A DNA stretch of 35,276 nt from a virus: positions 1-35,276 of IMG/VR virus record IMGVR_UViG_3300042887_002493; one strand, 5' to 3'. Below are positions 5,407 through 17,300 of this stretch, one piece after another. How positions within the stretch are numbered: position 1 is the stretch's first letter; every line of letters begins with the position of its first letter. A program made the position numbers and the translations under genes. Under the pieces are notes generated by a model. It ran no database searches. It had not been told where the DNA came from and worked only from the letters and a program-made list of their open reading frames with translations.

Positions 5407-5426
5407 TACCACCAAAAAAGGTGGTA
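5407..5426 (+). other. Perfect hairpin after the capsid gene
   Basis: A 7-bp perfect stem (TACCACC/GGTGGTA, 5407-5413 with 5420-5426) around an A6 loop, just after the capsid stop and ahead of the terminator at 5433. It lacks its own T-run. It may protect the abundant capsid mRNA from 3' decay or help termination. Confidence 0.6.
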
Positions 5427-5432
5427 ACCCAG

Positions 5433-5464
5433 AAAAGCCGCACTTGCAAAGGTGCGGCTTTTTT
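5433..5464 (+). terminator. Rho-independent terminator after capsid gene
   Basis: A 7-bp GC-rich stem (GCCGCAC 5437-5443 with GTGCGGC 5452-5458), extended by AAAA/TTTT pairing and followed by a T-run to 5464. It sets the head operon apart from the glycosyltransferase cassette that follows. Confidence 0.9.
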
Positions 5465-5492
5465 GCTATTTCATTTCGGACATCTTTTAAAC

Positions 5493-7196
5493 ATGAACAA
5501 AAAAATGAAAATCGTTGGGGCTGTCATCGCAGGGAATGAGGAGCAGCTGATAGAACGCTGCATTTTATCGCTGAAAAAAATATGCGATCAGATCGTTGTC
5601 GTTCGCGCAATAGGATCAGCAAACCCTGACCGGACGTTGGACATTGCAAGTGAGCTTGGGTGCGTAGTGGGAGAATACCAGAACCATCCATTGCTTCAGG
5701 ATTGGCCGCATGTGGATGATTTTTCTGCTGCAAGAAATCAGGCATTCAAGATCGCATACGAGATCGCAGGAAAAGATGGGCTCGTTACATGGGCTGATTG
5801 CGATGACATAATCGAGGAGAACATGGTTGAGAAAACAATCGCGGCCTGCAATTCAATGCCCGCAGATTGTGATTGGATGCTAACCGAATACGTTGTGCCA
5901 GAGGCCCACAAGAGAGTGCCGAGGGAGAGATTTTTCAGATACAGAACAGGATGGTGGCACAAGCCAATACATGAGAATGTGCAGGCCGTGAACGATGTGA
6001 AAATCAACATCCGCAGGGATATTGAAATTTTACATCAACCTCAAAGCGGCAAGAATAGTGGAGCAAGAAACAGGGCGATTCTATTGAATCAGGACAAGCT
6101 CAGCTCCTATTGGAAATTTTACCTCCACTACGAAAATTTCATAAGAGGAAACAGAGCTGATTGCGTCAGGTATGGAACAGAGGCCTTGGCGATGAGCGAC
6201 CTTGATGCCGTCTATCGCTATGAGACATTGGTGAATTGCGCTTCGCTTGCAGCAATGGAGGATGCGCTACGGCTTGCCGATGATGCAATCAGGACAACGC
6301 CGGACAGACGAGAGGCCTATGGACTAAGGGCAACATTGTTGCTCGATTGCGTGGATTTTAAAGAACCAACTCGAAACAATGAAGGAATCCTGATTGAGGC
6401 CGAGAAAACATTGAACCAAATGCTCGCAGTTTCAGTCCCCGCCTTCCCGCAATGGACGCATCGAAAAGAGTGGTACGGATGGAAGGCTGATGCCTTGCGA
6501 GACTGGATTTTGAGAATGAAAGGGGATGCGGAAAGTGCCGACAAAATAAAAAAGGATTTTTTTGCGAAAAGCAAATTGCCTTCCATTTCACTAATTCATG
6601 CAACCAGAGGGAGGCCAATAAAAGCAACGAAGTGCATGATGCTTTGGATCGAGAGAGCAAAACATCCGGAAATGATTGAACACATTTTTTGCATTGATGC
6701 CGATGACCCGCAAATTGATTTCTTCAACAGATTCAAAAAGGAAATACAAAACGAAAATGGATTTTCAGTCGGAGCTTGGAATTTAGGTGCAAAAAAAAGT
6801 AGCGGTGACATAATCGTGCAGCTTTCCGACGATTGGGAACCACCGTTGCATTGGGATGAGGAGATCGCCTCGCGATTAGATTTGGCCGAGGAGCAAGTGC
6901 TTCGAGTTTCTGATGGATACAGAAAAGATGATTTGATCTGCATGGCAATTTTAACACGCAAATACTATGAAAATTACGGTTTATTCAACCCGCTCTTCCG
7001 AAACGTCTACTCAGACACCGACTTCACTTATCGTGCCGCGAAAAGTGGGAAAATTATTGAGGCTCGCGATCTTGTTTTCTTACATCATCACCCGTTTTTT
7101 GAAAATGGTGAAATGGATGAAACCTACCAACGTGGCAACAGCCCTGACGAGTATCAACGGGCGAAAGCAATCTTCGACGAACTCCACCCGAAATGA
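5493..7196 (+). CDS. Two-domain GT-A glycosyltransferase with central TPR-like region
   Basis: A 567-residue protein. I chose the ATG at 5493; an in-frame start at 5421 would lie inside the terminator stem. Residues 1-230 are a GT2-type domain: 'MKIVGAVIAGNEEQLIERCILSLKKICDQIVVVR' opening, 'SANPDRTLDIASELG' and a DxD-like Asp102-Cys-Asp104-Asp105 for metal/sugar-nucleotide binding, then 'HKPIHENVQ'. Residues about 230-340 are helical repeats, TPR-like. From about 365 there is a second GT-A-like domain (LPSISLIHATRGRPIKATKCM, IVQLSDDWEPP, FLHHHPFFENG). This domain order resembles SunS-like and other bacterial GT2 proteins. The acceptor is unknown (virion protein, host envelope or capsule). The ATGA overlap with the next gene indicates co-translation. 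Confidence 0.85.
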   Translation: MNKKMKIVGAVIAGNEEQLIERCILSLKKICDQIVVVRAIGSANPDRTLDIASELGCVVGEYQNHPLLQDWPHVDDFSAARNQAFKIAYEIAGKDGLVTWADCDDIIEENMVEKTIAACNSMPADCDWMLTEYVVPEAHKRVPRERFFRYRTGWWHKPIHENVQAVNDVKINIRRDIEILHQPQSGKNSGARNRAILLNQDKLSSYWKFYLHYENFIRGNRADCVRYGTEALAMSDLDAVYRYETLVNCASLAAMEDALRLADDAIRTTPDRREAYGLRATLLLDCVDFKEPTRNNEGILIEAEKTLNQMLAVSVPAFPQWTHRKEWYGWKADALRDWILRMKGDAESADKIKKDFFAKSKLPSISLIHATRGRPIKATKCMMLWIERAKHPEMIEHIFCIDADDPQIDFFNRFKKEIQNENGFSVGAWNLGAKKSSGDIIVQLSDDWEPPLHWDEEIASRLDLAEEQVLRVSDGYRKDDLICMAILTRKYYENYGLFNPLFRNVYSDTDFTYRAAKSGKIIEARDLVFLHHHPFFENGEMDETYQRGNSPDEYQRAKAIFDELHPK

Positions 7197-11722: not shown

Positions 11723-12088
11723 ATGGCCGCAACCGTTATCACCTCATCTGTCGCCTCTGGCGTATCATTCGGACTTTTACAAGAGACCGGACTCCTTTTA
11801 AGCTCATTCAGCCGTTCCGTACAAGCGGACAAGGCGACCGTCATGGATGCCCTCGGCGATACCGTCGCCGTCGCATATTACAATAAAACCGCAACGATAA
11901 GCTTGAACGGCGTTATCAATGGCGGCGTGAACTATCAGCTCGCAAATGTGCTCACGCTTGCAAATGACACGACCACGTCCGGCGTTTCAGGTGGTGCAAT
12001 CATTGTTGATTCCATTTCGGAAGAGACCGGCGCGGGAACCTTCAAAACCATTACCGTCAGCGCCACGCAGTACCCAGAAATCGTTTAA
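11723..12088 (+). CDS. Probable tail tube protein
   Basis: A 121-residue beta-rich, Ala/Val/Thr-rich protein between the tail-terminator candidate and chaperone genes. It has alternating strands: 'GLLQETGLLLSSFSRSVQADKATVMDALGDTVAVAYYNKTATISLNGVINGG' and 'TSGVSGGAIIVDSISEETGAGTFKTITVSATQYPEIV'. The 'NKTATISLNG' and 'KTITVSATQYP' strands resemble the end strands of tail tube subunits. It is shorter than lambda gpV (246 residues) but similar to minimal tube proteins. The major tail tube call is by position and pattern. No Shine-Dalgarno precedes the ATG. Confidence 0.55.
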   Translation: MAATVITSSVASGVSFGLLQETGLLLSSFSRSVQADKATVMDALGDTVAVAYYNKTATISLNGVINGGVNYQLANVLTLANDTTTSGVSGGAIIVDSISEETGAGTFKTITVSATQYPEIV

Positions 12089-12133: not shown

Positions 12134-12520
12134 ATGAAACTTTTTCAGACAATAAATTTAAAGGCCGCAGTTTGCCTCGCAACCCTCGGCTTTAAACCTA
12201 ACAACCCACCAATCACTCGAATGGTGAGGGCCGATGGCAAGGAATCCACCGTATTTTGGTTTGAGGGAACAAACGACAAAGGGGAAGACGCCGGATTCGT
12301 TTATCGGAACATGACCAAAGAGGGCGATAACTTGGAAAGAAAAGACCCAGAAAATCCGATTTGCTACATTCGGGCAGCCCTTGCAAATAGGGACATTCTT
12401 GTAGACCTAATCAGGGAGACGCCGCGAATAATTGAAATCGTGCGCAACGGGAAGCGCATTGCAATTAGCGAGAATGCGTCAGAGGAAACCAGACGCGAGA
12501 TGACTCGATTTTTGAAATAA
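12134..12520 (+). CDS. Conserved-looking tail-region protein of unknown function
   Basis: A 128-residue protein from ATG 12134; an in-frame GTG at 12119 is possible but lies in the hairpin. It has 'LATLGFKPNNPPITRMVRADGKESTVFWFEG' (strand pair) and 'DPENPICYIRAALANRDILVDLIRETPRIIEIVRNGKRIAISENASEETRREMTRF', with a C-terminal helical part. I do not recognise the family. It sits between the tube and chaperone genes. Its stop is followed 4 bases later by the next ATG. It could be a tail assembly factor. Confidence 0.55.
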   Translation: MKLFQTINLKAAVCLATLGFKPNNPPITRMVRADGKESTVFWFEGTNDKGEDAGFVYRNMTKEGDNLERKDPENPICYIRAALANRDILVDLIRETPRIIEIVRNGKRIAISENASEETRREMTRFLK

Positions 12521-12524
12521 CAAA

Positions 12525-12845
12525 ATGCAACCCGATTCATACAATTCCGCATGTAAGGAAAAGAAGCTCACAACAAGTGAGAAGATCGCCCAACAAAAGG
12601 CCGCAAGGGCCCAGAAAAAAATTGATGCGAAAACCAAAAAAGCATCAAAGGGAAGTGGGGGAAGGATGGGAACAAAGGGAGAAGAAAAAAAGACCAAGGG
12701 GGCATCAGGGAAGGAGGCTGCGCCAGAGAAAAAAAAGCTTACAGCGAGTGAACGTGTCGCGCAGCAAAAGCAAGATAGAGAGAAGAAAAAAGCAAAAGGC
12801 AAATGCGGACCAAATGGGCAAAAAGGGAAGACAGCAAAAAAATAA
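12525..12845 (+). CDS. Lysine-rich low-complexity protein
   Basis: A 106-residue, very basic protein with about 29 Lys plus many Ala, Gly and Gln. The N- and C-terminal halves carry a repeat: 'KKLTTSEKIAQQK' (about 13-25) and 'KKLTASERVAQQK' (about 70-82), joined by a Gly/Lys/Thr-rich linker. Composition is like histone H1 tails or polymer-binding proteins. It lies in the tail operon between two small tail genes and could bind DNA, RNA or an acidic tail-chaperone partner. A second frame (12577-12858) is also open over the same A-rich region. I favour this frame because of the repeat and because its start is 4 bases after the upstream stop. Confidence 0.5.
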   Translation: MQPDSYNSACKEKKLTTSEKIAQQKAARAQKKIDAKTKKASKGSGGRMGTKGEEKKTKGASGKEAAPEKKKLTASERVAQQKQDREKKKAKGKCGPNGQKGKTAKK

Positions 12846-12854
12846 AAAAACTTT

Positions 12855-13262
12855 ATGAAAAAAAATAAAAACGAAGGAACTGAACTCAAGCGCGACGATG
12901 AAGAAATCAGGATGCAAGCGATGGGTGATGGCAAGAAAAAATTACACCGCTGGAACTTCAGACCAATTACCGCGCTGACAATTTCATGGATTCAACGAAA
13001 TGAGGTTTTTAGCGACAAGCATGATTTGATTTGGAAATCCGCAGCATACGCATTTTTGCATTGCCAGCCATTTGCTGAAATCCGCCGCGTTGTTAATGAC
13101 CCTGATGCTTTCAGGGATGCTGTTGACTGCTGGATTGAGAAGAACATCATGCACCACAATGAGATCGAGGCTATCGCGGCAGAAATGAATTCTGCTTTTG
13201 ACCTTTATTCCTCATCCGTTTTTACATCATCTGATGCGGAAGGCGAATCCTCGGGAAACTAA
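12855..13262 (+). CDS. Tail assembly chaperone (short form)
   Basis: A 135-residue protein ending at TAA 13260-13262. Its body 'HRWNFRPITALTISWIQRNEVFSDKHDLIWKSAAYAFLHCQPFAEIRRVVNDPDAFRDAVDCWIEK' is helical, with an N-terminal charged stretch. It is immediately followed by a slippery heptamer, GGGAAAC (13253-13259), in the right frame, and a long downstream reading frame (see the extension at 13259). This matches the lambda gpG/gpGT design, in which the short product and a frameshifted longer product assist tape measure and tube assembly. The tape measure gene lies one gene downstream. Confidence 0.8.
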   Translation: MKKNKNEGTELKRDDEEIRMQAMGDGKKKLHRWNFRPITALTISWIQRNEVFSDKHDLIWKSAAYAFLHCQPFAEIRRVVNDPDAFRDAVDCWIEKNIMHHNEIEAIAAEMNSAFDLYSSSVFTSSDAEGESSGN

Positions 13263-13322
13263 ACAGCCCCAACTGGCTCGCTGCTTACGTCTATAAGCTC
13301 GCGACACTGACCAGCTGGGGCT
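13253..13322 (+). promoter_or_regulatory. -1 programmed ribosomal frameshift signal
   Basis: Slippery heptamer G-GGA-AAC at 13253-13259 in the zero frame, followed directly by the stop TAA. After a 5-base spacer comes a stem: 13265-13276 pairs with 13311-13322 over 12 positions with one A-C mismatch. Inside its loop is a second 5-bp stem (13283-13287 with 13294-13298). A slippery XXXYYYZ, a stop and a strong stem 5-9 bases downstream is the classical layout. Slippage gives GGG-AAA-CTA and continues to the stop at 13507. Confidence 0.88.
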
Positions 13323-13507
13323 TTCAAGAGATTACAGAGGAAGTCCCGTTTGCCGTAGGATTGCAGCTAATTCATGCAGACCTACATGCACATGGAGCAA
13401 AACGCGCTTGGGCAAGAGATGAGCAGCCAGCAGACATTGATGCGCTAACATATATCGACAGCGTGCTTAACAAGTTTTCATTAAGTGATGAACCCCCGAT
13501 TGAGTAG
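13259..13507 (+). CDS. Frameshift extension of tail chaperone (gpGT-like)
   Basis: The -1 frame entered at GGGAAAC adds 82 residues, starting 'LNSPNWLAAYVYKLATLTSWGFQEITEEVPFAVGLQLIHADLHAHGAKRAWAR' and ending 'LNKFSLSDEPPIE'. The extension is helix-rich, with N-P-N-W-L and G-F-Q-E-I-T segments like the C-terminal parts of tail chaperones. It has no plausible independent start, so it is expressed only as a fusion (about 217 residues from 12855). The fraction made cannot be read from the sequence. Confidence 0.82.
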   Translation, partial: LNSPNWLAAYVYKLATLTSWGFQEITEEVPFAVGLQLIHADLHAHGAKRAWARDEQPADIDALTYIDSVLNKFSLSDEPPIE

Positions 13508-13548
13508 GCCCCGCCGAGGGTTGACTCTTTCCGCATTAGTAAAGACCG

Positions 13549-14358
13549 ATGCCAATTTTAAGCTTCAACAATGCACCTTTCAAAGACTTGATGCAAAAAT
13601 ATGCAACGATCAGGGAGAAGACAATACCTGAAAGCATACAGTTGCACGCGAGATTGCTTTGCGTTGAGTTGGCAATGAGGACACAGCCGTTTGGAAAAAA
13701 CGAGAGCGATGTGAAATCAGGCGAGGGAGCAATTCGCAGGGATTTATTGGGAAGGGCAATGCAAAGAGCAGGGCTTTTTGGAGCTATCGGAAGTGTTACT
13801 CCTTACAGCACCGGTAATGTGCGCCTATACGTTTTTGGCGGACATGCCTATGGGTTGGACAAAACGCATTACCGACCAGATGCAGGAGAGGGAGACATGA
13901 GGACATTCCACAAAGCAAATTTCAAAGATGGAAAAGTCACCTCCGCAGGATCGAGAACACTTGACGTAGGCAGATGGAAATTTGTCGAGAAAATGTATGT
14001 GAACAAAAAGACCCTCGGGTCTTATGTGAACTATGTGAAGGATCACGTTGGCATTGCAAAAAGTGGATGGTCGGGTTGCTGCGAATTATTGCCGAAGGTG
14101 GTTGCAGGAAGCATGACGCGAGGCATTCCATCATGGGTAACAAGACACGTCAGAGGAAGCTCAGAGGTGATTGACAGAACGAGCGATCAGGACAACCCAA
14201 GCATTGTTGTAAAAAACCTTGTCCCGTGGGCAAGTAGTGTTTGCCCGTATCCGCAGATTATCGTTGCTTTGACTGATGTTAAAATGAAAGCAATTAAACA
14301 ACTCAATTACGTCTTGAAATCACAAGGCAAAGAAATACCGAAATTAACCGAAAGCTAA
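13549..14358 (+). CDS. Hypothetical tail-region protein before the tape measure
   Basis: A 269-residue protein with basic helices and no membrane segment. Features: an N-terminal 'LMQKYATIREKTIPESIQLHARLLCVELAMRTQPFGKN', central 'HAYGLDKTHYRPDAGEGDMRTFHKANFKDGK', and C-terminal 'VKDHVGIAKSGWSGCCELLPKVV...MTRGIPSWVTRH'. The V-G-x-A-K-S-G-W motif occurs in several phage proteins of unknown role that lie near tail genes. I cannot name the family. It sits between the chaperone and tape measure genes, so a tail assembly or tail-tip-related role is likely. Confidence 0.6.
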   Translation: MPILSFNNAPFKDLMQKYATIREKTIPESIQLHARLLCVELAMRTQPFGKNESDVKSGEGAIRRDLLGRAMQRAGLFGAIGSVTPYSTGNVRLYVFGGHAYGLDKTHYRPDAGEGDMRTFHKANFKDGKVTSAGSRTLDVGRWKFVEKMYVNKKTLGSYVNYVKDHVGIAKSGWSGCCELLPKVVAGSMTRGIPSWVTRHVRGSSEVIDRTSDQDNPSIVVKNLVPWASSVCPYPQIIVALTDVKMKAIKQLNYVLKSQGKEIPKLTES

Positions 14359-14362
14359 AAAT

Positions 14363-17300
14363 ATGGCAGAAGTCACCGTAGAGTTTGGGGCCACCGATAC
14401 AGGGCTCGAAAAAACACTTGAGAATGTAAGGGCCGCAATGGCCGACTTAGAGACAAAGCAAAAAACCACAGCTATGTCTGCTGAGGATTTCATGCGTTCG
14501 ATGGCAGAAATGAAGAAGCTGCAAGGGACTGAGCAGCAGTTGCTCAAGATGATGGGGGCTACCGATCAGCTCGGGAAATCGCAAAAGGAAACCGCAAGCG
14601 GAACTGAAAAATTCGTCGATGCAATACAGGCTGTAGAAAAACCAACACAAACCGCAGCGCAGAGATTGACCTCGCTTCAGGGGGAAATTTCAGAACTGAA
14701 GGAAAAGACAAAATCAGCATCGCTCACCGAGGAGGAATTTGCTGACACATTAAAAAAAATCAGCCAACTCGAGGCGACCGAGAAGCGGTTAAAATCAATC
14801 GCTGGAGGAACTGAAGAGCTTGGAAAGATTAGCTTCGCCACCGATGAGAAGGTGGAGGAAGTGGACAAGAGCCTGATTGAGGTTGGAAATACAGCAGCCA
14901 AGACAGACCCGAAAATTAAAAAGCTCGGGGAGGGGATGAAATCATCAGGAACAGACGCAGAAACCTCCGGAGCTAAATTTAAGGTGGGCTTTGCCGATAT
15001 TGCAATCGGCGCGACCGTTGCGGGAGCAGCGGTAAAAGCGGGCATGCTTTTGATGGATGGGGCGTTTGCAGCCGTCAAAGGGACATTTGAGGCGTTCGGT
15101 AAGGCTCTCGACATGGGAAGCCGTATGCAAGACCTTTCAGACCGAACAGGAATCATGGCCGACAAGGCGATTGTGCTGGAGAGAGCATTTACAAATGCAG
15201 GCATCGAGGCGTCGGACTTCGGCGTGATTATTAACAAGATGCAGGACGGATTGATTTCTGCAAAGGAAGGATCAGGAAAAGCTGCTGATGCTTTAAGCAT
15301 GCTTGGCATAAGCTTTTCAGATATTGAAAAACTCAGCCCTGACCAGCAATTTAAAATCATTGGAAAAGCGATTGCGGGGATACAGGATCCGGCACAAAAA
15401 ACATCGCTTTCGATGGATTTATTTGGCCGATCAGGCGGCAAGATGAATCAGATTTTTGCCGACATGGACAAAAACATCGACGATGCCCAAAAGCAGCTTG
15501 GGAGCTTGCCGGAAGCGATGAAGAGGGTCGGAGGTGCATTTGATCGAATCGGGGAGAACATGCAAAATTCCAAGGCAAAGATTGTGGAATTTGCAGCGGG
15601 AATCCTGGACAGAATATCGCCTGCATTGGATGCTGTTTTTATTGCGCTGTCGCGAATTGATGCAACAAAATTAGGGCAAGACCTTGCAAAGGCATTTCTC
15701 GGGGCTGGGGACAACATGAAGAACTTCCAGCTTGCCATTGATGCAATCAACGGTGGGGACATGGTGACGGCTCTGAAAATCATGTTTAAGGCCATCGAGA
15801 TTCAAGTGATGGAAACAGGCAACATCATTTACAAAACATTGATTGCCTCATTTCAAACCGCTGGGGATTTTATTGAAAAGATTTTTTCAAGTGACGGGGC
15901 AGTGATGAAATCAATGCTCAGCCAAGCAAAACTTTTTGGCTATCAAATTATCGAGGAAGTCACGATGGCATTGGCTAAAGCCTTTAATGGAAATGCGCTA
16001 ACAAAGGGCCTATCGGATAGCATGGCCGATGCGTCTTACGAGGCAAAAGCAATGGGGACGATGATGGAAATTGAACTCGTCGGGGCGGGTCGCAAAATCA
16101 AAGAGCAATTCACGGAAGCCGGAGCAGCATTACCAAAATCATTTCAGACAAATTTTAAAAACGTCCAACCGCTTTTCACCAGCATTGCAGACAAGCAAAA
16201 GGAAATCCTCGAACTATCAACAAAAAATGCCCTCGCGGTAAATTCATCGCAGAAAGGATTAGAGGGAGTCGCGCAGCATCAGCAGAACATTCGGGATTTA
16301 ATCGAACAACAGAAAAAATCATCCGAGCCGATACCTGGAATACAGGAAAAAATTAAGGGCGAGGTGCAAAAAATTGAAGCTCTGCAAAAGGGAGTTACGG
16401 TCGCAACGCAGCAAACCGAAACAGCAGAAAATGGAGTAAATAATGCAGCTAAATCGACAAATAGCACGTTAGCGGATCAGTCCGCAAAGCGGGATCAGCT
16501 ATACCGTCAAGCAGCGGCACAAGCCACAAAGGAGTGGGAAGCCTCTAAACAAAAGGCTCAAAGTGTAGCTGACGAAATCGTAAGCACGCTGGAGCTCAGC
16601 AGAGCGAGAGCAGCGGGGAATGTGCCTTTTGAAAAGAGTTTGGCATACCTAAAGGAATTTAACAAGCTACAGGAGGAATACAGCAAGTACATGCCCGAGG
16701 AAAAGGCGAAGCAGCTTGCAGCGGAGATGGCAAAGGTCAAAGCACCATTGCAGACGATTGGTGATGAGTTGAAACGAATTGAGCAAATGAAAATCGACAA
16801 GCCGTTGCTTTCCGCAACTGAGGCCAGCAAAAAATTGAAAGAAGATTTGAAGAGCTTAGCGGTTGAGCTTGGAGGTGATTTTAGTGGATGGAGCGTGCAA
16901 GATTTGAGCAGGGCCATGGGGATTGATACGATGGGGAAGACATCTCAAGAAGCGATCGCGGCGGTGCAAAAAAACATCGACAATTTAAAAGCCTTACCAG
17001 TTATGTTCACCGCAAACGGGGATGGAATCATCCGCGAATACGACAAGGCGGGGAAAGATATTACAGATAAGCCATTGACCATTCAGGGGAGCCTGAGTGA
17101 CCTTCGGAAAAAATGGGATGAAATCGAAAAGGATATTACGAGAGAGCAAAAGCTGAAAGGGGATTTAACTCAGCTCAAGGATGCCGTTACCAAATTTTTT
17201 GCTGACCCAAAAAATTTGAACCTTAAAATTGAGGACGCGCAGAAGAAAATCGCAGAACTTGCAAACATTCCTGTTGCCGTAAAGCCCCAGATAGACAAAC

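Follow-up and report, generated by a model that had tools for sequence, protein, structure and literature searches.

In phage lambda the short form of the tail-assembly chaperone (G) binds the tape measure protein, the extension that a frameshift adds to it (GT) binds the major tail protein, and the 30:1 ratio matters for assembly (PMC5009743). This G/GT arrangement is widely conserved despite low sequence similarity. Heptamers with AAG as second codon are highly shift-prone in E. coli, G_GGA_AAC and A_AAA_AAC rank with the heptamers on which mammalian ribosomes shift most, and G_GGA_AAC is the reported g-t shift site of the haloarchaeal siphovirus HCTV-1 (PMC5009743). Because of the HCTV-1 report, the heptamer that we describe below is not new in a tail-chaperone role, and the frameshift mechanism itself is well known; what is new here, and well supported by comparison of sequences, is a frameshifted gene family of uncultured phages.

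The locus lies in a window of 35,276 nt, the whole stretch of DNA that was analysed, from an uncultured virus (IMG/VR virus record IMGVR_UViG_3300042887_002493). A preliminary description made from the letters of this window had proposed a -1 frameshift in a tail chaperone gene, and from the evidence set out below we infer that a programmed -1 ribosomal frameshift of the lambda G/GT kind very probably operates here, the frameshifting, its efficiency and the chaperone role of the products all being part of that reading. The features concerned are collected in Table 1.

Table 1. Features of the frameshifted unit and the genes downstream of it (positions in the window)
Feature	Position	Strand	Remarks
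Upstream (G-like) ORF, putative short tail-assembly chaperone	12855..13262	+	135 aa; C-terminus ...S-G-N-stop
Slippery heptamer G_GGA_AAC	13253..13259	+	X_XXY_YYZ register; XXXAAAC in 106/106 distinct sequences
-1 frame extension (T-like)	13253..13507	+	82 residues past the slip; stop TAG 13505-13507; coding-like codon-position pattern
0-frame stop TAA	13260..13262	+	abuts 3' side of heptamer; stop adjacent in 106/106 distinct sequences
Stimulatory stem-loop (predicted)	13265..13322	+	outer stem 13265-13276 / 13311-13322; 5-nt spacer
Conserved 269-aa protein, no known family	13549..14358	+	between GT-like unit and tape measure gene
Tape measure protein, 1064 aa	14363..17557	+	PHROG 8462 E 6e-14, PHROG 9483 E 2e-13; tblastn to annotated tape measure proteins

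The upstream ORF closes with the codons TCG GGA AAC TAA, so that GGGAAAC stands in the right frame for a tandem slip, the stop follows straight after it, and the -1 frame is open for 82 residues up to its own stop, all as the preliminary description had it. Its further statement that the extension has no start codon of its own is correct near the beginning of the extension but not over its full length, where a TTG at codon 37 (13361) and a GTG at codon 71 (13463) are present. Heptamers of the XXXYYYZ type are common in frame, with 79 across 38 likely genes of the contig, and GGGAAAC is the only one of the 79 that both abuts a 0-frame stop and opens a long extension. A second stop-abutting heptamer, AAAAAAA, is found at 12836-12842, where the -1 frame opens only 10 codons.

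Among cultured phages, blastn gave no DNA match to positions 12500-14400 and tblastn gave no match to the upstream protein; relatives were instead found in viral contigs and in one contig of a Verrucomicrobia metagenome-assembled genome (MAG). The first large search for relatives was seeded on the extension and returned 82 sequences including the window, all with GGGAAAC; its pattern includes GKL and hence leans towards this very heptamer. Because of this leaning we ran two later searches seeded only on the upstream protein and not on the slip site, and these returned XXXAAAC directly before the stop in 65/65 and 80/80 loci (the two sets overlap in contigs) and uncovered CCCAAAC and AAAAAAC forms. 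Across the 106 distinct sequences the XXX triplet is GGG in 88, CCC in 16 and AAA in 2, the adjacent stop is TAA in 94, TAG in 8 and TGA in 4, and in none of them is the extension interrupted within the 222 nt compared; in two further loci (L111 and L135) the extension is cut off by the contig ends. Absence of the heptamer from relatives, or stops in their extension frame, had been named beforehand as the finding that would speak against a frameshift; in all 106 sequences XXXAAAC is present, a stop abuts it and the extension is open.

The XXX triplet shifts as a block, for which parsimony on the extension tree requires at least 8 changes (recombination may explain some of them), and each such change alters a residue in both frames, the extension starting with GKL, PKL or KKL and the ORF ending with GN, PN or KN; it is therefore the heptamer pattern that is conserved and not the peptide. 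Directly after the slip, Leu is encoded only by CTA or CTG, so that the 0-frame stop stays in place (106/106), whereas a stop is overlapped by only 97 of the 786 Leu codons found elsewhere in the extension. At the first, second and third codon positions of the extension the mismatch rates are 0.31, 0.18 and 0.52, a pattern by which the extension evolves as a protein. Judged from these alignments, the conservation reflects selection on the slip rather than shared ancestry. CCCAAAC occurs in two separate clades of the extension tree (L117-L139 and L096-L146), flanked by identical bases (GGAAGCCCAAAC) in both, as if exchanged by recombination near the end of the upstream gene.

If the extension were a separate gene, with its own start or reached by termination-reinitiation at the UAA, the heptamer would be incidental. 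Stop-adjacent arrangements can support reinitiation, and the TTG and GTG codons given above do lie in the extension frame. However, the conserved part of the extension begins at the slip itself (GKL..P.W), and from -20 to +12 codons around the slip an ATG is present in the extension frame in 0 of 106 sequences and any of ATG, GTG or TTG in only 7; as the keeping of the XXX triplet as a block also argues against a separate gene, we regard this explanation as very improbable. There is next to no chance that the extension is what is left, by decay or through a sequencing error, of a gene that was once continuous (a pseudogene or an assembly frameshift), an explanation that a single sequence would have left standing and that no tool result favours. 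The same split, with protein-like conservation on both sides, recurs in sequences of many samples, 106 of them distinct, and in the Verrucomicrobia MAG, which refutes it.

Downstream of the heptamer the preliminary description had placed, after 5 bases, a 12-position stem with one mismatch and a second stem inside its loop, and had asked for conservation of the stem in aligned relatives. The outer stem, formed by the strands AGCCCCAACTGG and CCAGCTGGGGCT, agrees with this in full, with 11 of 12 positions paired, a single mismatch (A13272-C13315) and a spacer of 5 nt. The region 13260-13335 folds with -28.5 kcal/mol (z = -4.3), none of 200 dinucleotide shuffles was equally stable, and among windows of the contig, folding as good was reached by only 5 of 1631 with similar G+C and folding as good or better by 12 of 3521 sampled. 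Across the relatives 94.6% of the outer stem cells are paired, a share that drops to 22-64% if the strands are displaced by 1, 2 or 3 columns, and of the 90 folds predicted 74 have a 5-nt spacer. Two-sided compensatory changes in the outer stem are few (14 cells, one pair) because most of the stem bases are invariant. The Pro codon in the stem is CCC in 104 of 106 sequences, compared to 13 of 140 for the other Pro codons of the same extensions, and third-position entropy in the outer stem is 0.14-0.75 bits against a mean of 1.36. In three relatives (L129, L132 and L133) TCT has replaced the Ser codon and GGA the Gly codon, and here the stem is formed anew in an adjacent register. By these measures synonymous sites are constrained so as to preserve the outer stem. 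The second stem is present in the window (13283-13287 / 13294-13298) but is not conserved among the relatives, as it is paired in 50.7% of cells, no better than after a one-column slide, and we rejected it as a conserved element. The heptamer, its register, the stem and the open, protein-like extension, with selection on all of them, hold across about 100 relatives.

In the mechanism that we propose, most ribosomes would read the 135-codon ORF and terminate at the UAA, giving the short protein. A minority would pause at the stem-loop with tRNA-Gly on GGA and tRNA-Asn on AAC, both tRNAs would slip back by one base from G_GGA_AAC to GGG_AAA in a conventional, stem-aided tandem slip, and the shifted ribosomes would continue from CUA for 82 residues to give a fusion of about 217 residues, with a predicted junction peptide ...ESSGNLNSPNWLAAYVYK (including S-G-N-L-N-S-P-N). 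By analogy with lambda, the short form would coat the tape measure protein and the long form would additionally recruit the major tail protein during assembly of the tail tube.

A variant of this mechanism is that the slip occurs partly with the stop codon in the A site and is then dependent on release factor. The adjacent 0-frame stop is invariant in the 106 sequences though most Leu codons would remove it, and this lineage keeps AAC, whereas AAG second codons are the highly shift-prone type in E. coli (PMC5009743); both observations fit such a stop-assisted slip. However, the keeping of the XXX triplet speaks for a conventional tandem slip that takes place while the stop has yet to reach the A site, and the adjacent stop may simply end the short form exactly, so that we see a small though appreciable chance of the variant being correct. 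With the same small likelihood the fixed stop would be part of the mechanism, termination kinetics would compete with or feed the slip, and the ratio of short to long product would be tied to the release-factor activity of the host.

The preliminary description had called the shifted gene a tail chaperone gene standing just before the tape measure region. It does lie upstream of the tape measure gene, which starts 1.1 kb downstream of the slip site, but one gene, the 269-aa ORF, intervenes. Counterparts of the 269-aa protein are found in two relatives, L002 (584-1411) and L003 (2688-3491). A Lys-rich ORF of 106 aa (12525-12845) closely precedes the frameshifted gene in the window, and L003 has no counterpart of it at that place. 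Homology identified no major tail protein in the window, where 11723-12088 is a candidate only. Further upstream, ORF 10410-11270 matches the Pfam family PATR (passenger-associated transport repeats, E 7e-13) and, weakly, a tail fibre, and a glycosyltransferase-like ORF with two domains (5421-7196; PHROG 13126 and 14945) separates the major head protein gene from the tail genes.

The upstream ORF and its extension are likely to be a tail-assembly chaperone, a name that derives from position and architecture, by analogy, because neither half matches a known family. The upstream protein forms a conserved family in the alignments of relatives. In searches with single proteins and with a 17-member alignment there was no significant Pfam or PHROG match for any member of this family or for the window's own extension and no PDB sequence match for the upstream half, and scattered Pfam, PHROG and PDB matches at E 0.02-0.2, each resting on one to three members, were discarded. 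The AlphaFold2 model of the upstream ORF has a mean pLDDT of 75 and consists of a beta-hairpin plus helices; its fold search against PDB gave chance matches only, and the best match in BFVD is an uncharacterised protein of an uncultured phage (E 6e-3, TM 0.62). The model of the -1 half was too poor for a fold search (pLDDT 57), and the window holds no Rfam family. Judged by these searches the protein family matches no described one and is a divergent addition to the lambda G/GT kind. As this kind is conserved despite low sequence similarity, the lack of a family match does not count strongly against a chaperone, and the original naming of the gene is upheld by position and architecture but not by any sequence or fold match to a known chaperone.

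It is unlikely that the product of a real frameshift here is another two-form protein of the tail cluster and not a tail-assembly chaperone. The missing homology or fold match to known chaperones would fit this, as would the 269-aa gene ahead of the tape measure gene, whereas the size of the protein, its two-form product by a -1 shift and its location upstream of the tape measure gene fit the G/GT arrangement (PMC5009743), and Marinomonas phage P12026 and Idiomarinaceae phage 1N2-2, which are weak relatives by their tape measure proteins, have a comparable arrangement with AAAAAAG.

The only relative among genome contigs is the one in the Verrucomicrobia MAG (L154, JAGWWS010000019.1). This MAG also encodes a portal relative, on contig C79, and the tape measure protein of the window has a weak match in the Verrucomicrobia phage P8625. 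The MAG contig and the P8625 match suggest Verrucomicrobia as the probable hosts; the former may be a misbinned virus contig. Ordinary annotation of such genomes would show an orphan ORF only and miss the extension altogether. The replacement of GGG by CCC or AAA as a block, with all else fixed, amounts to a natural mutagenesis series, from which the features of a bacterial -1 slip site that selection requires can be read.

Compared with described systems, the unit resembles lambda G/GT and its counterparts in long-tailed phages in having a short ORF upstream of the tape measure gene, an X_XXY_YYZ slip at the end of that ORF and a -1 extension that here, too, would be read only as a fusion. 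It shares no detectable sequence family with lambda G/GT, and has one intervening gene ahead of the tape measure gene. The shift site reported for HCTV-1, whose host is archaeal, is the identical heptamer G_GGA_AAC. The candidate chaperone genes of P12026 and 1N2-2 also precede the tape measure gene, and each has an XXXYYYZ heptamer in frame and a -1 frame that stays open beyond it, but their heptamer is AAAAAAG, placed 54-69 nt before the 0-frame stop. In the literature searched, which was covered in part, we found no report of an invariant stop right behind a tail-chaperone heptamer, and across the sequences compared the invariant adjacent stop is the one unusual feature of this frameshift unit. 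In contrast to the lambda G/GT kind, the lineage of the window has AAC and not the AAG second codon that is shift-prone in E. coli, a 0-frame stop directly past the heptamer in every member, and a strongly conserved outer stem; since AAG is the shift-prone codon in E. coli, a phage lineage that keeps AAC everywhere together with a fixed stop is slightly unusual.
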